A stretch of 64,000 bases of DNA, taken from Simplicispira hankyongi. GTDB lineage: Bacteria > Pseudomonadota > Gammaproteobacteria > Burkholderiales > Burkholderiaceae_C. Positions 4,521 to 34,956 of this stretch are shown here, in pieces. Positions within the stretch are counted from its first letter, which is position 1, and every line of letters starts with the position of its first letter. Position numbers and translations under genes: made by a program. Location of the stretch: positions 1 through 64,000 of the forward strand of contig NZ_QXJC01000008.1 in assembly GCF_003570885.1 (NCBI RefSeq), given 5' to 3'. The notes beneath the pieces are model-generated. The model was given only the letters and a program-made list of their open reading frames with translations, made no database searches and had not been told where the DNA came from.

Positions 4521-5772
4521 GGGTTTCTCCGGCGACGATGCGGATCGTCTGGCGTGCATTGCGAAACGGCGTCACGGCGACGCGGCTGGCATCGCTGCCC
4601 GCCGCGAGGCCGATCTCGTCGTCGCGCAGGTAGCAGCCGGGGTCTTCGGCCCAGGCGTCGCCCGTGAGCTGCTGGGCGCGCACGCGGGTGTTGCCGCCGC
4701 ACAGGTCAAAGTAGTGGCACTGCGCGCAGCGCCCGCCCACGGGGCGCGGGTGCGCCTTGAGGCCGGCCATCAGCGGCTCGGAGGTGTCGGACCAGATGGC
4801 AGAGAAGGGCCGCTGGCGCACATTGCCCAGGTCGTGGTGCCACCACATGGTGTCGGGGTGCACGCTGCCCAGGTTGTCGATGTTGGCCACGTTCACGCCG
4901 CTCGAATTGCCGCCCCAGGCGACCAGGCGCTCGCGCAGGGGGGCCTCCCACTGCGGCATGCGTGCGCGCACCCACTGACTCAGATAGGGGCCGTCGGCGT
5001 CGTTGTTGCCGGTCACGTAGTCTTCCTCGCGGCCCTCCAGCGCCGCCTGCCAGGCGCGCTCGAACAGCATGTCCAGCGCATTGCGCGTGGCCTGGAACTG
5101 CGCGTCCTTGCCGCGGTGGATGTTGCCCCGGCCGGCGTAGTTGAGGTGCGAGAAATAGAACTTGTCCACCTGCTCGGCGCGCATCAGGTCGAGCAGCGCG
5201 GGCAGGTCGTGCGCGTTCATGGCGGTCATGGTGAAGCGCAGCCCTACCTTTACGCTGCGCGCGTGCAGGTGGCGCACGGCGGCCAGGCTGCGCTCGAAAG
5301 CGCCTTCGAGCCGCCTGAAATGGTCGTGCGTTTCGCGCAGGCCGTCCAGGCTGATGCCCACATAGTCAAAACCCGTGGCGGCCACCCGGTCGGCCATGGC
5401 CTCGTCGATCAGCGTGCCGTTGGTCGAGAGGCCCGTGTAGAACTTCATCGCCTTGGCACGTTCGGCGATCTCGAAGATGTCGGGGCGCATGAGCGGCTCG
5501 CCGCCCGAGAGGATGAGCACCGGCACGCGGTAGTCCTTGAGGTCGTCCATCACGCCGAACACTTCGCTGGTCGAGAGCTCCCCCTCGTAGTCGTGGTCAG
5601 CCGAGAGCGCATAGCAGTGCTTGCAGGTCAGGTTGCAGCGGCGGATCAGGTTCCAGATGACCACCGGTCCGGGGGCGCCACCGCTGCCCCGGCGTGCGTG
5701 CACTGCCTCTGGGTAATGCCCTGTTTTTTCGGCGTGCGCGAGCTCGCGCATGTACTGGCTGATGCGGAACAT
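4513..5772 (-). CDS. nirJ: NirJ, radical SAM enzyme of heme d1 synthesis
   Basis: A cytoplasmic radical-SAM enzyme (419 residues) that replaces two propionate side chains of the tetrapyrrole with oxo groups during heme d1 synthesis. The SAM cluster motif is CNLTCKHC near residues 46-53. A C-terminal cysteine set (CAQCHYFDLCGG followed by a later Cys) would hold a second iron-sulphur cluster, as in NirJ and other SPASM-type enzymes. GGEP and STNGT core motifs are present. It starts three bases after the nirH stop and overlaps nirN, so it should be translationally coupled in the operon. Confidence 0.93.
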   Translation of the reverse strand: MFRISQYMRELAHAEKTGHYPEAVHARRGSGGAPGPVVIWNLIRRCNLTCKHCYALSADHDYEGELSTSEVFGVMDDLKDYRVPVLILSGGEPLMRPDIFEIAERAKAMKFYTGLSTNGTLIDEAMADRVAATGFDYVGISLDGLRETHDHFRRLEGAFERSLAAVRHLHARSVKVGLRFTMTAMNAHDLPALLDLMRAEQVDKFYFSHLNYAGRGNIHRGKDAQFQATRNALDMLFERAWQAALEGREEDYVTGNNDADGPYLSQWVRARMPQWEAPLRERLVAWGGNSSGVNVANIDNLGSVHPDTMWWHHDLGNVRQRPFSAIWSDTSEPLMAGLKAHPRPVGGRCAQCHYFDLCGGNTRVRAQQLTGDAWAEDPGCYLRDDEIGLAAGSDASRVAVTPFRNARQTIRIVAGETHV

Positions 5773-27446: not shown

Positions 27447-28730
27447 TCAGCGCATATTGCCGGTGTGCCCCAGCGAATAGCGCCCCGGCTGCGGCCAGAC
27501 GGTCAGTCCGTGGGGTTCGGCGCCCACGCGCACCTTGGTTACCGCGCCGGTCGCCGTATCGAACCGGTACACCACATCGTCAAACCGCCCGGATAGCCAC
27601 AGCCACTTGCCGTCGGCACTCACGTTGCCCATGTCGGGGCTTCCGCCCCCGGGAATGGGCCATTGCGCCACGACAGTCTGGGTGGCGAAATCAATCACGC
27701 TCACCTTGCCTGGGCCCTTTTTGGTGCCGTGGATCTTGTGCGTTCCGCGGTTCGCCACATACAGGCGCTTGCCATCGCGGCTCGGGTACAGACCGTGCGT
27801 GCCCAGCCCCGTGGGGATGAAACCGACTTCCACGAACGCATCGCCGTCCAGCACGTGCACGCCATCGGCGTCCATGTCGGCCACAAAGAAGCGCTTGCCG
27901 TCGGGGGAAATGCGGATGTCCTGCGGCATGCCCTTGGTTGAGGTGCAAATCTCGGTCTCCAACGGATTGAGCGCCGCCTTCGACTCTGAGAAGCGCACAG
28001 CAGGCATCTTGAGCTTCAGGTAGCCCAGCACCTTCCGGTTGGCGAGGTCGATCTTGGCCACGCTGCCGTCGAACTCACAGGTGAAGAGCGCGAATCGGCC
28101 GTCGATTGAGAAATCACCGTGGTTGATGCCCCCACATTGGGGCGTGCTGATCGCGTACTGCATGGCCAGCGTCTTCGGGTCGCGAAAATCCAGCCTGCGC
28201 CGCGCTTCGGCAACGACGATGAGCGAGGCGCCATCGGGCGTGAAATACACGTTGTACGGGTCGTCCACGGGCACCGACTTGCCTGTTTGGCCGGTGCGTG
28301 GGTCGATGGGGGTCAGGCTGCCCTCGGTGCTGCGCTCGGCGTTGTTGGCCACCCACAGCGTGGACAAATCCCACGACGGCACCACGTGCTGCGGGCCTTT
28401 TTCGACGCGCAAGGTATCCACCACTTTCAGGGTATGGGGGTCGATCACCGACACAGACCCGGAGCGCAGGTTGGGCACGTAAACCCGCTCAAGGTGGTCT
28501 TTCACAGCGGGACTCATATGGTCCGGTGTCGTTTCGCTGTAGAGGTTTTTCGGGTCTGGCACCGGCGGCATGCCAGGCACCGTCTTGATCGGGGGTGTCG
28601 GTAGGGCCGTCACGGCTGTGCCTTGCGCCTGAACCGGTGCGCTCGCCTCCTGGCGATCGCCTGCGCTGGCGCCCACCACGCCGAATGCGGTCAGGAGAAG
28701 AAGCCAGATTTTCATGGGAGTGGGTTTCAT
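27447..28730 (-). CDS. Exported YVTN-type beta-propeller protein
   Basis: A 427-residue periplasmic protein with a signal peptide (about 1-23) and a seven- or eight-bladed propeller made of YVTN-type repeats, for example VYVPNLRSGSVSVIDPHTL, LYVANRGTHKI and KWLWLSGRFDDVVYRFD. No heme motif is present and the d1 signatures are absent, so it is not a NirS, NirN or NirF paralogue. The start overlaps the stop of the creatininase-family gene (ATGA), so the two exported proteins should be made together and perhaps act as a pair. Function unknown. Confidence 0.85.
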   Translation of the reverse strand: MKPTPMKIWLLLLTAFGVVGASAGDRQEASAPVQAQGTAVTALPTPPIKTVPGMPPVPDPKNLYSETTPDHMSPAVKDHLERVYVPNLRSGSVSVIDPHTLKVVDTLRVEKGPQHVVPSWDLSTLWVANNAERSTEGSLTPIDPRTGQTGKSVPVDDPYNVYFTPDGASLIVVAEARRRLDFRDPKTLAMQYAISTPQCGGINHGDFSIDGRFALFTCEFDGSVAKIDLANRKVLGYLKLKMPAVRFSESKAALNPLETEICTSTKGMPQDIRISPDGKRFFVADMDADGVHVLDGDAFVEVGFIPTGLGTHGLYPSRDGKRLYVANRGTHKIHGTKKGPGKVSVIDFATQTVVAQWPIPGGGSPDMGNVSADGKWLWLSGRFDDVVYRFDTATGAVTKVRVGAEPHGLTVWPQPGRYSLGHTGNMR

Positions 28731-29590
28731 TTTTTGAGGGGGGTTGGCGCAGGGCTTGAGCCAGCTTGCTCCTGCATCAGGGCATGCAGGGCTGCCACGC
28801 TGCTGTCCACAATTTGGCTCACGCCGATGCGGCCAAGTTCGGCGCTCGCACGCCGCGGGTCGCCGTAAACGCCGCCGCGCTTGCCGGCCTGCGCTGCCCT
28901 GTTCAGTTCACCAGCGCGCACCAGCGCCGGGTCAACCGCCAGCGACAGCGATGTATCGGCCAGGCCGGCATGGGTCCCGATTTCAGCGCGGGTGAAGCCC
29001 CTTTTCAACAATTCGGCCACGTAGAGCGATTGCGTGACCTGGTAGTACTCGGCCAGCGCATACACGCGGCAGCTCGGATCGCTCGCCCACTCATGGTTGA
29101 GGCGTTGGGCCACGCGGGCTTCGAGTTGCTGGTAGCCGCCGTGGTCACCGAGGAACACGACATGGCGAAAGCCGTGCTGTTTGAACGAGCGCGCAGCGCC
29201 CTCCAGCACCGCTTCAAAGGCGGCATCGGGAATCGAAATCGTGCCCGCAAAGCGCATGTGCGCCTGTGGTGGGTGAATGGCGCCCTCGGGCACATAGGCC
29301 AGCACGGGCGCCACCACCGTGCCCCCTGCGCGCTGCGCGATCTGCCCGGCCAGGAAGCGAACGCGCGCATTGTGTTTGCCCAGCACCATGTGTGGCCCAC
29401 TTTGTTCGGTGCCACCGATGGGCACCAGCACGGTGGTGCTGCCAGCGGCGATGCGGTCCCGCAGTTCGGTCCATGTCATGTCTTCGAGGTAGACGCTGGG
29501 CGATGCAGTGCCAGACGCCCACGCAGCCCCAACGCCCAGACCACTATGGACCAGCGCCATGAGGAAGACGGCACGTAGGCACCTGGGCAT
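28727..29590 (-). CDS. Exported creatininase-family protein
   Basis: A 287-residue creatininase-fold protein with a likely signal peptide (MPRCLRAVFLMALVHSGLG, cut near AWA-SG). The family metal site usually reads EQHGPHLPLGTD; here it reads EQSGPHMVLGKH, so the His and Asp ligands are replaced by Ser and His. The later site reads GDHGGYQ rather than GHGGN. It may belong to a distinct exported subfamily with another metal arrangement. The start is uncertain: an ATG at 29725 would give a longer protein with another hydrophobic leader. It is the first gene of a pair with the beta-propeller protein. Confidence 0.75.
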   Translation of the reverse strand: MPRCLRAVFLMALVHSGLGVGAAWASGTASPSVYLEDMTWTELRDRIAAGSTTVLVPIGGTEQSGPHMVLGKHNARVRFLAGQIAQRAGGTVVAPVLAYVPEGAIHPPQAHMRFAGTISIPDAAFEAVLEGAARSFKQHGFRHVVFLGDHGGYQQLEARVAQRLNHEWASDPSCRVYALAEYYQVTQSLYVAELLKRGFTRAEIGTHAGLADTSLSLAVDPALVRAGELNRAAQAGKRGGVYGDPRRASAELGRIGVSQIVDSSVAALHALMQEQAGSSPAPTPLKK

Positions 29591-29935
29591 CGGCCTGACA
29601 AGGCGAAAGCTGCTGGACGAAACCCCGCCAGGCGGCGTGTGCGCCAGCCCACTGCCGCCAGCGCGTGCAGCGCGTGGGGCGCAGAAAGGCAGGCAAAACC
29701 GCAGAAGCTGAACGAGAAGGCGCATAAGCGCTTGATGGTACAAGCCCACAGGTTGGATTCAGGCGCGCCCTGCTCCACCTGTAGCGGGTGGATACAATAA
29801 AAATGATAGCTGTAAACGCATTAATGAAAAGCGCTAAAGGCTATTTAGACCAAGTTTTTACATCGCCAAGAGACGCCGCGGCGGACGGCCTGCGCCGCTG
29901 GTGCCGCCACCTCGGGGCCGGGTCCCTCGACGGTT
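29591..29935. other. Intergenic stretch upstream of creatininase-family gene
   Basis: No independent gene is seen. The part from 29591 to about 29750 may be the upstream coding end of the creatininase-family gene if a longer start is used. The rest holds copy 3 of the Comamonadaceae repeat and the end of the buf operon transcript. Confidence 0.4.
29795..29862. repeat. Comamonadaceae palindromic repeat, copy 3 (diverged)
   Basis: A diverged copy in the inverse direction: AAAATGATAGCTGTAAACGC, a short loop, then AAGCGCTAAAGGCTATTT. It lies between the creatininase-family gene and the DoxX gene stop and may serve as the end of the buf transcript. Confidence 0.65.
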
Positions 29936-30403
29936 CTAGCGGTTGAACAGCGCGCGGTCCATCGACAGTGCACCGCCGCCGCGCCCCACCAGATACAACA
30001 ACAGGCCGGCCCATGACAGGTGTGTGGGCCAGGCGTCCGGGTAGACGAAAACCTCGATCACCGCCGTCATCCCTAGCAGTGCCAGGGCGGACAGGCGTGT
30101 GAACAAGCCCAGCACCAGCAGTATCGAAAACAGGTGTTCGGAGGCGGTTGCCATCTGCGCTGCCCATTCGGGCGGAATGACGGGCAGGTGGTACTCCTCG
30201 CGAAACAGCACATAGGTGCTGTCCTTGATGTGGAACCAGCCGTCAACCTTGGTCCGTGCCGACATCCAGAAGATGCTGGCGATGCCGAGGCGATTGACCA
30301 GCGCCAGCAGCGTGTGCGGCGTGGCGCGTTCGGCGAGTTGGCGCAGGCGCGTGAGGGGGCGTTCGGTGTGCGTGGGGCGGTGGGGCAGGGCGGCGGTGTT
30401 CAT
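29936..30403 (-). CDS. DoxX-family membrane protein
   Basis: A 155-residue DoxX-type protein with four membrane helices. IASIFWMSARTKVDGWF is the family start, followed by FREEYHLPVIPPEWAAQMATASEHLFSILLVLGLFTRLSA. DoxX proteins are common last members of bufferin/HvfABC-type operons, where a role in membrane redox or respiratory coupling is suspected but unproven. The start overlaps the bufC stop (ATGA). It is the fourth gene of the operon led by the precursor gene. Confidence 0.9.
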   Translation of the reverse strand: MNTAALPHRPTHTERPLTRLRQLAERATPHTLLALVNRLGIASIFWMSARTKVDGWFHIKDSTYVLFREEYHLPVIPPEWAAQMATASEHLFSILLVLGLFTRLSALALLGMTAVIEVFVYPDAWPTHLSWAGLLLYLVGRGGGALSMDRALFNR

Positions 30404-31176
30404 ACGGGGTCCTCTGCGCCAGTTGGCGCGCACAGGGCGCCGCTGGAAAGCAGCAGCGCCGTCAGTTGGGCAAGGGTTTCGCCAGCGCCACCAGGCGTTG
30501 CTGCCAGCGCTGACTCGGCGGCTTCGGCAAGCGGTTGGCCGGCGGCGCAAACGTCTAGAAAGGCCACGCCGGCGCGCGGCAGGGCGCACCACTGCACAGC
30601 GCCACTGGGGCGTGTCAGCAAGGCGCCTTCGGCCTGCCAGGGCAGCGCTGTATCGACGGCCAGGCCTTCGCGGTGGCGCTGCCAAATGGAATACGCGGGG
30701 TGTTCGTGGCACCACAGCCAGCGGGCGGCTGGGTGGGGCGCGATACGTGCCGCGCCCAAGGCTTCGGGCGGCTGTCGAGCCAGCCAGCTGGCGGCCAGCG
30801 GCGGTGCATCGGCTGCCAGGTGCGCTTCGGTCCAGGCGCGGTCCAGACGCGCCACGTCGCTCAGGTAAGGCAGTTCGGCGGCGGGCGCAAAGCGGGCCAG
30901 GAACGCCGCAAAGCCGACGCCATAGTGCATCAGGCGGCCATCGGCGGGCGGCTGCACGGCCAGGTAGGTTTGCGCTGCGCCGCAAAACCAATCCTCACCC
31001 ACCAGTTGCACCACCGTGGGGTAGTTGGCGCGCAGCGCGTCCAGCGCCGCCTTGCGGCCACTGTTGCGGTAGACGGCAAAGCCGGGTTGGGCGCAGAGGG
31101 CGTCCATCCAGGCAGGTGTGGGGGCCGCCGTGCGCAGCGCGGCACAGAAGCCGTCCTGGAACGCGCTCAGTTGCAT
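30400..31176 (-). CDS. bufC: BufC-like (DUF2063) partner of the MNIO enzyme
   Basis: A 258-residue protein with the DUF2063 N-terminal domain: MQLSAFQDGFCAALR, then GFAVYRNSGRKAALDALRANYPTVVQLVGEDWF, which is the family hallmark. In bufferin and related RiPP systems it acts as the partner that helps the iron-dependent oxidase bind the precursor peptide. It overlaps bufB by 10 bases and the DoxX gene by 4, so the enzymes are tightly coupled. Only this internal start gives the family N-terminus; the frame upstream is non-coding. Confidence 0.88.
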   Translation of the reverse strand: MQLSAFQDGFCAALRTAAPTPAWMDALCAQPGFAVYRNSGRKAALDALRANYPTVVQLVGEDWFCGAAQTYLAVQPPADGRLMHYGVGFAAFLARFAPAAELPYLSDVARLDRAWTEAHLAADAPPLAASWLARQPPEALGAARIAPHPAARWLWCHEHPAYSIWQRHREGLAVDTALPWQAEGALLTRPSGAVQWCALPRAGVAFLDVCAAGQPLAEAAESALAATPGGAGETLAQLTALLLSSGALCAPTGAEDPV

Positions 31177-32015
31177 GCCAGCTCCTCGTGCGGCGTGCCG
31201 CAAAGCGCCCGGTGGGCGCGTGCACGTTCGGCCAGCAGCTCGGCCAGTGGCGGCAGCTCGGCATCGCGCTCGATCAGCGTGGGAACCGGCCCGGTGCGTG
31301 CAATGGCGTGCCGCCACAGTGCCCATACCGGTTCGGCTACGGGTGCGTCGTGGCTGTCGATCAGCAGGGCTGCGCCGTGCACCGGGTCGGCATGGTGGCC
31401 GGCCAAGTGCATCTCGGCCACCGCGTGCAAGGGGTACTGGTCCAGGTAGTCGAGCGCGTCGGTGCCCAGGTTGTTGGCGCTGACAAAGACGTTGTTGATG
31501 TCCAGCAGCAACTGGCAACCGGTGCGGCGCACCAGTTCGGCAAAGAATGCGCCCTCGCCCATGTCGTGGCCGGGAAGGTGCAGGTAGTGGCTGGGGTTTT
31601 CGATGGCAATGGGACGGCCCAAGGCTTCTTGCGTGCGTTCGATGTTGCGCGCCACGCGCGCCAGGGCTTGCTGGGTGCGGGGAAACGGCAGCAGATCGGG
31701 TTGGTACACCCCGCGCCAGTGCGACCACGCGAGGTGTTCGGAGACCAGCGCCGGCTCGATGCGCCGCACGAGTAGAGCCAGGCGGGTGAGGTGCGTCTCG
31801 TCGGGCGGCGCGTCGGCCGCGAGCGACAGCGAGACGCCATGCAGCGACACTGGGTGCCGCGAACGGATGGCGTCCAGCCAGGCCAGGCGCGGCCCTCCGT
31901 CTGCGAGGTAGTTTTCTGGGTGCACTTCCCACCACAGGCCGGTGTCCTGGCAGGCCAGGGCCTGTTCATAGTGCTCGGGCTTGAGACCCAGGCCGGCGGT
32001 GAGGGAGGTGTTCAT
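31167..32015 (-). CDS. bufB: BufB-like MNIO (DUF692) RiPP-modifying oxidase
   Basis: A 282-residue TIM-barrel enzyme of the DUF692 (MNIO) family, multinuclear iron oxidases that modify cysteines in precursor peptides. Metal-ligand-type motifs are visible in order: GLWWEVHPENY, VSLHGVSLS, LVSEHLAWS, IAIENPS, LLLDINNVFVSA, EMHLAGH and LLIDSHD. The full-length protein follows the precursor gene by 16 bases and overlaps bufC. It is predicted to convert one or more core cysteines of the BufA1 protein into heterocycles. Confidence 0.9.
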   Translation of the reverse strand: MNTSLTAGLGLKPEHYEQALACQDTGLWWEVHPENYLADGGPRLAWLDAIRSRHPVSLHGVSLSLAADAPPDETHLTRLALLVRRIEPALVSEHLAWSHWRGVYQPDLLPFPRTQQALARVARNIERTQEALGRPIAIENPSHYLHLPGHDMGEGAFFAELVRRTGCQLLLDINNVFVSANNLGTDALDYLDQYPLHAVAEMHLAGHHADPVHGAALLIDSHDAPVAEPVWALWRHAIARTGPVPTLIERDAELPPLAELLAERARAHRALCGTPHEELACN

Positions 32016-32031
32016 GGCAGCGCCGCGTGGA

Positions 32032-32331
32032 TCAGGACTTCATGGCTTCGAGCGATCCCATGCCCTTGGGTGTCTTCATGCTGGTGCAGGTACCTGCAGG
32101 CACGTACTTCCAGGAATTGCCCTGGTAGTCCATCTTCGAGGTGCCCGCACAGGTGGTACCGGGGCCGGCAGCACAATCGTTCTTGCCGGCCATGGCGACG
32201 CCGAAGCACTTTTCCATTTTCGGTTTTGCCATGTCCGATTTCATGTCGCCGTTCTGGGCCTGGGCCATGGCAGCGCCCGAAGTCAGGGCGGCAAGGGCGA
32301 TGGCGGCGAAGGTGAGAGAAGATGCTTTCAT
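32032..32331 (-). CDS. bufA1: Bufferin-type precursor (DUF2282, BufA1)
   Basis: A 99-residue exported small protein of the DUF2282 family. The signal peptide is residues 1-23 or 1-25. The mature part has four cysteines at 42, 53, 61 and 82, in [23 protein letters not shown] and VPAGTC, the typical bufferin layout. Family members are modified on cysteine by an MNIO enzyme and help cells cope with excess copper or other metals. It is first in the operon bufA1-bufB-bufC-doxX. GGAGAAATTC precedes the start. An exact sigma-F-type promoter lies about 93 bases upstream. Confidence 0.9.
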
Positions 32332-32423
32332 GTGAATTTCTCCATTGCGAAAGTTGATTGGGATACGGCTTTATTCCAGACCGGCCATGCCGGGTGATCA
32401 CCGCCGGCCTGTCTGCGGTGTAA

Positions 32424-32449
32424 TTCGCGCTTTTGATCCCACCGGTTAC
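32424..32449 (-). promoter_or_regulatory. SigF-type promoter of the buf operon
   Basis: Read on the minus strand, GTAACC (32449-32444) is followed after exactly 16 bases by CGAA (32427-32424). This matches the promoter described for Caulobacter SigF and related ECF factors (GTAACC-N16-CGAA). It faces bufA1, with a leader of roughly 85 bases. Confidence 0.8.
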
Positions 32450-32491
32450 GGCTGGCTTAAAAAGGGCAGATATTTCTTTTTGCGCCACGCT

Positions 32492-32517
32492 GTAACCGCA
32501 ACACGCCTCGCAACGAA
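32492..32517 (+). promoter_or_regulatory. SigF-type promoter of sigF-nrsF
   Basis: GTAACC (32492-32497), 16 bases, then CGAA (32514-32517): the same exact pattern as the divergent buf promoter, facing the sigma factor gene. The predicted transcript start is about 12 bases before the ATG, just at the GCAGGA ribosome binding site. The sigma factor should therefore control itself. Confidence 0.8.
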
Positions 32518-32535
32518 TATCCGCAGGAACCGACT

Positions 32536-33078
32536 ATGGAAATTGAAGAGCGCCTGCGTGCGCTGCTGCTGCAGGGCCTGGCTGGCGAGGCGCGGGACTA
32601 CGAACGCTTTCTCGCGGCACTGAGCACCCATTTGCGCGCCTTCTTGCGGCGCAGACTGGGCCAATGGCCCGATGAAGTGGAGGATCTGGTGCAGGAAACC
32701 TTGCTCGCGGTGCACAACCAGCGCCACACCTACCGTGCCGATATGCCGGTCACCGCCTGGGCGCACGCAATTGCGCGCTACAAGCTGGTGGACTGGTTTC
32801 GCGCACACGCGGTGCGCGGTGCGCGCAACGTGCCGCTGGATGACGCGGACGAATTGTTTTCCACGCAAGACCAGGATGCCGCACAGGCACGCCGCGACCT
32901 GGGGCTGCTGCTGGAAACGTTGCCCGACAAACAGCGTCTGCCGATCCAGCACGTCAAGCTTGAAGGCTTGTCGGTGGTAGAGACGGCCCGCCTGACCGGG
33001 CTTTCCGAGTCGGCGGTCAAAGTAGGTGTACACCGGGGCCTGAAGGCCCTGGCGGCTCGAATCAGGGGTGTGGCATGA
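32536..33078 (+). CDS. sigF: ECF sigma factor, SigF type
   Basis: A 180-residue ECF sigma-70 factor with region 2 ([23 protein letters not shown]) and region 4 ([39 protein letters not shown]). The NrsF-type anti-sigma gene directly after it (4-base overlap) and the buf operon opposite it mark it as the SigF-type ECF factor known from Caulobacter, which responds to chromium, cadmium and copper. Two exact matches to that factor's promoter lie in the shared intergenic region. The start at 32536 has GCAGGA eight bases upstream. Confidence 0.92.
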
Positions 33079-33716
33079 AGACGGATGAGTTGATTGGCAT
33101 TCTGGCCACGGGCGCCCGCCCCGTGGCGCCCCACCGGCTGGAGCAGCGCTTTGGCGGCGCGGTGCTGCTGGGCCTGGTGGGCGCGGGCGCATTGATGCTG
33201 CTGATCTATGGCGTGCGGCCGGACCTGGCGCAGGCCCTGCAGTTGCCCATGTGGTGGCTGAAGTTTTCTTTTGCTGCCGTACTGGCTGGCGCCGCAGCGC
33301 TGGCGCTGCTGCGCCTGGCGCGCCCCGGCATGCGCCTGGGCCACGCGCCGGCCTGGGTGCTGCTGCCGCCGCTGGTGCTGTGGCTGATGGCGCTGGCGGC
33401 GCTGCAGGGCGCCGCGCCCGGTGAGCGCGCGGCGATGGTGCTGGGCAGCACCTGGCGCAGCTGCCCGTTCAATATTGCTCTGCTGTCCCTGCCGGGTTTT
33501 GCCGCGCTGCTCTGGGCCATGCGCCAGGCCGCGCCGACGCGCTTGCGGCTGGCCGGCGCGTGCGCTGGTCTGCTGGCCGGCGCGCTGGCCACCCTGGCCT
33601 ATGCCTTGCACTGCCCGGAAATGCAGGCCCCCTTTCTCGCCGTTTGGTACGTGCTGGGCATTGCCCTGCCCACGGGGCTGGGCGCCTTGCTCGGGCCGCG
33701 GGTACTGCGTTGGTGA
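33075..33716 (+). CDS. nrsF: NrsF-type anti-sigma factor (DUF1109)
   Basis: A 213-residue inner membrane protein with six predicted helices and a short cytoplasmic N-terminus ([20 protein letters not shown]) that would hold the sigma factor. Cys130 (RSCPFN) and Cys180 (LHCPEM) are the two Cys-Pro sites conserved in NrsF proteins and thought to sense metal or redox stress from the periplasmic side. A third Cys163 lies in a helix. The overlap with sigF gives coupled synthesis. Its end is one base from the convergent cca stop. Confidence 0.9.
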
Positions 33717-33717
33717 T

Positions 33718-34956
33718 TCAGCGCGGCACAGCGGCAGCAATGGCCTGTGCGCGGGCGGCATGTATCTGCTCGCCCACCTGCGGCCCCTTAAGGCCGCGCT
33801 TGGCCGCTTCGGCCGCCAGCGGCGCCGTCTCCACCGCACGCGCGGCGTGCAGGGCGGCCAGCAGGCGCGCGCGCTGCGGGTAGGCGGATTCTTCAAACCC
33901 CAGGCGCCCCCGGGCATCGCATTCGCAGGCCAGCAGCACGTCTTCGAAGCGCGCCGGCTTCCTGATGGCGTCGCAGCGCTCGAGCAGGCGCAGCAGCGCC
34001 GCCGCGTTCAGCTCGCCGCTGCGGTGGATGTTGCCGTGCTCGCGCGCCACCACGTCGGCCAGCTCGCGGCAGTCCACCGGCACGCGCAGGCGCTCGCACA
34101 CGCCGCGCAGCAATTGGGCGCTGCGCTGCTCGTGGCCGATGTGGCGCGGCAGCATGTCGGCGGGCGTGGTGCCTTTGCCTAGGTCGTGCGTCAGGCAGGC
34201 AAAGCGCACGCCGAGCGGCGCGTTCAGCCGCGCCGCCATGTCCAGCACCATCATCAGGTGCACGCCGGTGTCCACCTCGGGGTGGTATTCAGGGCGCTGG
34301 GGCACGCCCCACAGGCGCTCGACTTCGGGCAGCAGCACGGCCAGCGCGCCGCAGGCCCGCAGCACCTCGAACATGCGGGAGGGTTGCGCCTCCATCAGCC
34401 CGCGTGCAAGCTCTTGCCAGACGCGTTCGGGCACCAGGTGGTCGGCATCCCCCGCTTGCACCATCTGGCGCATCAGCCGCATGGTTTCGGGTGCCACGGA
34501 AAAATCGGTGAAGCGTGCGGCAAAACGCGCCACGCGCAGGATGCGCACCGGGTCTTCTCGGAAGGCCCCGGTGACGTGGCGCAGCACGCGCGCCTGCAAG
34601 TCGCGCTGGCCACCATAAGGGTCGATCACCACCCCCGTTTTGGCCCAGTCGGCGCTGGCGGCTATGGCATTGATGGTCAGATCACGCCGCGCCAGGTCTT
34701 CTTCCAGCGTCACGTCGGGAGCTGCGTGCACCACAAAACCCCGGTAGCCGGGTGCGCTGCTGCGCTCGGTACGCGCCAGGGCGTATTCCTCGTGCGTTTT
34801 GGGGTGCAGGAACACCGGGAAATCGCGCCCCACCGGCACGAAGCCCCGGGCGAGCATTTGCTCGGGCGTGGTGCCCACCACGACCCAGTCGTGGTCGTTG
34901 ACGGGCAGGCCCAACAGGCGGTCGCGTACAGCGCCGCCGACCATATAGATTTGCAT
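33718..34956 (-). CDS. cca: CCA-adding tRNA nucleotidyltransferase
   Basis: A 412-residue enzyme that builds or repairs the CCA end of tRNAs. The class II nucleotidyltransferase head shows [33 protein letters not shown] and the [12 protein letters not shown] segment. A C-terminal HD domain ([14 protein letters not shown]) gives the phosphatase/phosphodiesterase activity of the long form. The start is 14 bases from copy B of the dispersed element, so any promoter may lie within it. It converges with nrsF. Confidence 0.95.

Follow-up and report, generated by a model that had tools for sequence, protein, structure and literature searches.

The intergenic region that separates a bufferin precursor gene from an ECF sigma factor gene in Simplicispira hankyongi raises the question of whether two short, opposed sequence elements within it are promoters of one class, both read by that sigma factor. 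The locus lies within a 64,000-nucleotide stretch of contig NZ_QXJC01000008.1, hereafter the window. The region spans 204 bp (32332-32535), from the bufA1 start codon (32331, minus strand) to the sigF ATG (32536), and, as a sequence-only reading had claimed, it carries two exact opposed copies of GTAACC-N16-CGAA, at 32492-32517 on the plus strand facing sigF-nrsF and at 32449-32424 on the minus strand facing the buf operon. The latter copy is followed by TTACA and its CGAA is separated from the bufA1 ATG by 92 nt; both copies are kept in relatives. The same reading had recognized the motif as that of a SigF-type ECF promoter, and it does match the consensus tGTAACc-N16-CGAA that was proposed for ECF group 16 (PMC3420878). 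By analogy with ecfF of B. japonicum, where transcription is reported to start 6 bp after the motif, the sigF transcript is predicted to start a few nucleotides 3' of CGAA, which would leave a very short leader ahead of the ATG at 32536. The 42-bp segment that separates the two -35 elements (32450..32491) contains the A/T tracts TTAAAAA and TTTCTTTTT, each located about 8-19 nt upstream of one -35, and these tracts may be UP-element-like. A search of positions 31000-33800 against Rfam returned a sole match, below the gathering score and to a eukaryotic IRES family, which we do not believe.

The genes on either side belong to the expected families. SigF (32536..33078, plus strand, 180 aa) is an ECF sigma factor that scores over the cut-off of NCBIfam NF009188 and contains the Pfam domains Sigma70_r2 and r4_2, and the overlapping nrsF (33075..33716, plus strand) encodes a membrane anti-sigma factor (PF06532, E 7.6e-74), which reaches 128 bits against the NCBIfam anti-sigma-F equivalog, under its cut-off of 300. 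Two NrsF cysteines, C130 and C180, are invariant across six aligned proteins and correspond by position to C131 and C181 of Caulobacter NrsF, which were reported to be needed to hold SigF target genes at basal level (PMC3511200); here they form a putative functional pair. Sigma regions 2 and 4, an adjoining DUF1109/NrsF gene, the factor's own promoter motif and the two cysteines are thus all present, and it is by these families, neighbor gene, motif and cysteines that we assign the factor to ECF16.

On the minus strand, bufA1 (32032..32331, 99 aa) encodes a DUF2282 bufferin precursor (PF10048, E 2.7e-26) with four cysteines and, by inspection, a signal peptide-like N-terminus, and it is the only DUF2282 gene found in a search of the genome. 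It is followed by bufB (31167..32015), encoding the MNIO bufferin maturase (NF050167, over cut-off, E 4.2e-108), by bufC (30400..31176), a DUF2063 protein gene (PF09836) whose start overlaps the bufB stop, and by bufD (29936..30403), a DoxX-family membrane protein gene (PF07681) whose ATG overlaps the bufC stop. These adjacent or overlapping genes hold the four families of a bufferin-1 cluster, and judged by gene order bufA1BCD is a candidate operon. The product of the bufferin-1 family has been described to bind copper and to raise copper tolerance, and genes for a sigma factor and NrsF are known components of such clusters (PMC12452194).

Directly downstream of bufD, across a 186-bp gap, lie a creatininase-family gene (28727-29749, minus strand) and a YncE-like/YVTN beta-propeller gene (27447-28730, minus strand) that overlap each other. 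We considered the two as additional buf genes and rejected this, as they are absent from the loci of relatives, many of which are too short to tell, except for a weak propeller match in one (L017, 38%, E 5e-3). Given this near-absence and a sigma-70-like match inside the 186-bp gap, the pair was left out of the operon and is probably a separate unit.

Could the twin motif be a coincidence in a GC-rich intergenic region? The number of sites lends this idea some support, as the genome contains four exact sites in 3.71 Mb compared with 11 for the reversed pattern, and the 26 genomes of the genus contain 68 compared with 169. Evidence has therefore to come from location and conservation and not from number. 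The 204-bp region yields 0.0004 sites per shuffle (20,000 dinucleotide shuffles), which makes two opposed sites by chance negligible, and allowing spacers of 14-18 across the window gives three matches against 0.12 expected. The third of these, with a spacer of 17 (27542-27516), falls within the beta-propeller gene and is taken as chance. Since, in addition, the pair is conserved in all 12 divergons found in the genus, coincidence is so improbable that it can practically be dismissed.

This conservation was assessed in 60 genomes, the genome under study included, of which 26 belong to the genus. In 12 of these 26 an nrsF gene is present, and both motifs are exact at all 12 nrsF loci (L005-L016, the window among them), counts that include shared ancestry. 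Aligning the same gap in relatives had been proposed as a check of the promoter reading, with loss of both motifs as the outcome that would speak against it; no such loss is seen at these loci. As to the other 14 genomes of the genus, 13 give sigF matches of at most 35% identity and one (G010) gives none, so that no sigF orthologue was found there. The bufA gene occurs in the same 12 genomes and in one that lacks nrsF (G009), where the 3.15-kb locus around bufA contains no site within one mismatch.

For deeper relatives, 82 loci from relatives, named genome contigs and plasmids were examined (L024-L026 omitted) and two duplicates dropped, leaving 80. The sigF and bufA genes stand head to head in 36 of the 80, including the 12 loci of the genus. 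Among these 36 divergons, counted irrespective of kinship, both motifs are exact in 23 and within one mismatch in 31, the sigF-side motif being exact in 27 and the buf-side motif in 25; outside the genus the pair is exact in 11 of 24 and within one mismatch in 19 of 24. The five divergons without both sites within one mismatch are a gammaproteobacterial MAG locus (L041) and four rhizobial loci, the variants of which include GTAACA and CGTA. Where any CGTA is found as the -10 element (seven divergons), it occupies both sides in five, three of them rhizobial.

The search was also run from the motif. In 399 genomes of the order, an exact divergent pair was recovered in 13 at a gap of 25-55 bp and in a further three at 56-86 bp, while the reversed pattern was recovered in none of the 399. 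Within about 1.5 kb of these 16 loci, one of which is the window itself, homologues of sigF and nrsF are present in 15 and bufA in 10. No match to sigF, nrsF or buf lies within about 1.5 kb of one exact divergent pair (L193, G154:C12, gap 79), and at another (L182, G213:C1) the promoter is followed by nrsF and then sigF, which reverses the order seen in the window, and buf lies on the opposite side. Two plasmids show further arrangements. A conjugative plasmid of Stenotrophomonas rhizophila (CP031732.1, L132) carries sigF-nrsF with a divergent DUF2282 gene and no bufB match within about 4 kb, and may represent a bufferin unit in reduced form. On plasmid p1 of Caballeronia grimmiae (L134), the place of buf opposite sigF-nrsF is taken by a gene with a cytochrome b/b6 domain and one for a molybdopterin oxidoreductase, a pair that is MsrPQ-like by inspection, and both motifs are exact in the gap.

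An opposed GTAACC/GGTTAC pair that flanks an A/T-rich center might also suggest the operator of a dimeric transcription factor instead of two promoters. We regard this as very improbable, because the distance between the halves varies from 32 to 133 bp across divergons while the spacer between -35 and -10 remains constant, because promoters were mapped in Caulobacter (PMC3511200), and because the element also occurs as a single copy, in fixed orientation and spacing, at msrP and at several bufA genes located elsewhere. Eleven loci lack a recognized sigF head to head with bufA; a bufA so placed carries an exact site of its own in six (L028, L033, L036, L043, L065, L083), a one-mismatch site in two (L074, L075), and no site within one mismatch in three (L042, L071, L080).

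The msrP site (L002, G000:C13:627903-629013) lies on a contig other than that of the window, upstream of a gene with an Oxidored_molyb domain. Directly downstream of msrP is a 225-aa membrane-type ORF, which by inspection we take to be MsrQ-like. Within the genus, the search for sites covered the 350 nt that precede msrP, or 179 nt in G025. Among genomes with a full-length msrP, an exact site is present in 11 of 12 that carry nrsF compared with one of 10 that lack it (Fisher P=0.0003, a value that ignores shared ancestry). The exception on the first side has a site with two mismatches in an assembly with 7% contamination (G016), and the exception on the second side (G021) is a 77% complete assembly in which no sigF orthologue or nrsF was found. 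A one-mismatch site, GTAATC, is present in a single-contig genome lacking nrsF (G004), and eight genomes lacking nrsF have no msrP site within two mismatches; of the others in this group, three gave no match to msrP and one gave a fragment of it. The genus thereby offers a natural experiment in which most genomes without SigF also lack the msrP site. In Caulobacter the msrP-type gene CC2748 is reported as a partly SigF-dependent member of the SigF regulon (PMC3511200), and as a CC2748-like gene carries a SigF-type site here, msrP is likely a further SigF target in this organism. To the sequence-only reading, the sigma factor, NrsF and the buf operon had looked like a self-contained unit, a description that does not survive the exact msrP site on another contig.

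It had also proposed a genome scan to define the regulon. The scan did add the msrP site, but with no enrichment, so that counting alone defines no regulon. Of the exact sites in the genome under study, one (L001), antisense inside a 724-aa ORF, was dismissed as chance. The 68 sites of the genus comprise 26 in divergons (G016 having two copies), 12 at msrP and 30 elsewhere, about one per genome. L001 is among these 30; three more lie inside likely genes (L122, L124, L130), and 24 were checked by a match test for msrP, buf and sigF. Two others (L104, G011:C1:141034, and L112, G017:C53:23413) lie just upstream of a further gene, which is possibly another SigF target; the window's genome has no exact site of this kind.

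Taken together, we consider the following circuit to be the best explanation, with a probability of about 0.92. The two motifs would be the -35 and -10 elements of a divergent promoter pair that is recognized by the adjoining ECF16 sigma factor SigF, and SigF would be kept inactive by NrsF, a membrane-bound anti-sigma factor in which two cysteines are conserved. SigF would be released by thiol-reactive metal or oxidative stress in the periplasm, most likely from copper, whereupon SigF-RNA polymerase would transcribe bufA1BCD, yielding a copper-binding RiPP as a buffer for metal in the periplasm, would boost sigF-nrsF, and would transcribe msrP elsewhere in the genome for the repair of periplasmic methionine sulfoxides. 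The identity, position and deep conservation of the motifs and the association of the msrP site with SigF-NrsF are observed here; SigF dependence and the role of the NrsF cysteines (PMC3511200) and copper induction (PMC8224329) were reported by others in relatives, and by this analogy the whole circuit may be expected to operate in the present organism. The comparative data lend strong support to the proposal that an ECF16 factor, NrsF and a divergent bufferin operon share one class of promoter.

The proposed autoregulation fares less well. It could be that only the buf side is driven by SigF and that sigF-nrsF is transcribed from this stretch mainly by housekeeping sigma-70 or another factor, the loop being weak or not autoregulatory. 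This is a minority view that we hold to be rather unlikely, yet one with experimental backing from relatives: the sigF promoter remained active in a Caulobacter sigF mutant, for which a second regulator was proposed (PMC3511200), and rpoQ-rsqA of Cupriavidus is RpoD-dependent as reported (PMC10304878). Against it stand the sigF-side motif, exact in three quarters of the divergons, a consensus scan (a crude test) that found no sigma-70-like promoter in the intergenic region, and the reported autoregulation of B. japonicum ecfF (PMC3420878). We therefore retain SigF control of both promoters, with an autoregulation that, given the Caulobacter and Cupriavidus observations, is probably only partial.

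Some further regularities were explored, and it can tentatively be speculated, at odds clearly below even, that the divergon has an additional architecture made up of a T-tract 13-18 nt upstream of GTAACC, a helical-turn spacing of the -35 elements and a buf mRNA stem-loop that tunes stability or translation. In profiles of hand-picked promoters (27 sigF, 23 bufA, 11 msrP; 3-nt bins), sigF and bufA promoters reach an A+T fraction of 0.75-0.86 in both bins that cover 13-18 nt upstream of GTAACC, and msrP promoters show 0.79 at 13-15 nt and 0.36 at 16-18 nt, with 0.15-0.58 in the remaining upstream bins, a peak that resembles an UP element. Across 31 lineages picked by hand, -35/-35 gaps up to a limit of 86 bp fall at 32-34 (7), 41-46 (18), 52-53 (2), 56-58 (3) and 79 bp (1), with none at 35-40 or 47-51 bp; this set leaves out L030 (133 bp) by the limit and L041, L069, L070, L079 (64), L082, L084 (59) and L132 (114) by hand. 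Classes around 33 and 43 bp each occur both among sphingomonads and among betaproteobacteria. As the spacings lie about one helical turn apart, both polymerases may share one UP-element platform, a periodicity that was tested at six periods once the data had been seen, so that its P values are post hoc and ignore phylogeny.

Folding of the bufA leaders points to a predicted stem-loop near the 5' end, in the window within the leader at 32332..32423 (minus strand). Of 49 leaders extracted, six near-duplicates and six short ones were dropped, leaving 37, and six more bufA loci had no site. The mean folding z is -1.40 (20 leaders below -1, 11 below -2), compared with -0.54 for 10 msrP leaders and +0.38 for the first 60 nt of bufA coding sequence at 37 loci, the windows being 60 nt in these controls and up to 70 nt in the bufA leaders. 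Bases 8-15 nt after CGAA are paired at 0.76 compared with 0.52 in shuffles. With these bases as the 5' arm, perfect stems of 5, 6 and 7 bp occur in 19, 12 and 7 of the 37 leaders, compared with 29%, 9% and 3% of leaders swapped between clades. The window's leader has a z of -1.57 and weakly raised pairing (0.59 compared with 0.49), a tendency shared by leaders from several clades. The hairpin is kept as exploratory, because perfect 6-bp stems come from only five of 15 clades and not from the window's own leader, because two clade alignments read by eye show no covariation worth counting, the core GACC/GGTC being nearly invariant, and because some bufA leaders, at 4-23 nt, are too short for a hairpin; that of Caulobacter CC2907 is given as 7 nt (PMC3511200). 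Stem-loop, T-tract and spacing are thus hints and not established features. This architecture was not found in the parts of the ECF16 and bufferin literature covered by our search and, if true, would mean that bufferin divergons share more than -35 and -10 elements.

Three known systems place the locus in context. In Sinorhizobium meliloti, the ECF16 sigma/anti-sigma pair rpoE7-ecfR7 adjoins its target operon SMb20530-20527, which, as here, has DUF692 and DUF2063 genes and ECF16-like promoter motifs; unlike the GTAACC of the window, the -35 of the rpoE7 promoter is GTAACA (PMC6180224), and the four rhizobial loci of our set are similar.

The gigPABT/rpoQ-rsqA locus of Cupriavidus metallidurans CH34 is the same divergon with both motifs exact. 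On the chromid (L131), the sites at 4750 (plus) and 4715 (minus) correspond to about 1315203 and 1315168 of NC_007974.2, with 34 bp between the -35 elements. According to one report, no promoter is known upstream of gig and its control by RpoQ is assumed, evidence being lacking (PMC10304878), while another states that RpoQ controls gig (PMC7563307); gig expression rose instead of falling when rpoQ was deleted, an observation against such control that the authors attribute to compensation (PMC10304878). We did not find the motif assigned to gig/rpoQ among the literature matches listed, which mostly leave subscription journals outside their scope, and the assignment constitutes a directly testable promoter prediction for gig/RpoQ in C. 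metallidurans.

The closest paradigm is Caulobacter crescentus, in which the link between factor and promoter, as the earlier reading had stated, is established for the same divergon by experiment (PMC3511200). There the operon CC3254-CC3257, with the same DUF2282-DUF692-DUF2063-DoxX content, lies beside sigF-nrsF, GTAACC-N16-CGAA upstream on both sides and two conserved NrsF cysteines are common to both organisms, and msrP (CC2748) belongs to the Caulobacter regulon (PMC3511200). The Caulobacter operons were studied by 5'RACE, by primer extension cited in that work and by lacZ fusions, and the buf side was found to depend on SigF alone, the sigF side on SigF in part (PMC3511200). Copper induces the SigF regulon, and mutation of sigF renders the cells sensitive to copper (PMC8224329). 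One difference is that Caulobacter has a second bufferin-type operon under SigF, CC2907-2905 (PMC3511200), compared with the single DUF2282 gene here. The back-to-back arrangement of twin promoters is thus already known from Caulobacter, and the locus described here is a genuine ECF16 divergon, well conserved and of an ordinary kind, whose regulon is slightly extended. It suggests that here, too, a single sigma factor links a metal-buffering peptide to the repair of periplasmic methionine, and it extends to a betaproteobacterial genus a circuit known by experiment from an alphaproteobacterium.
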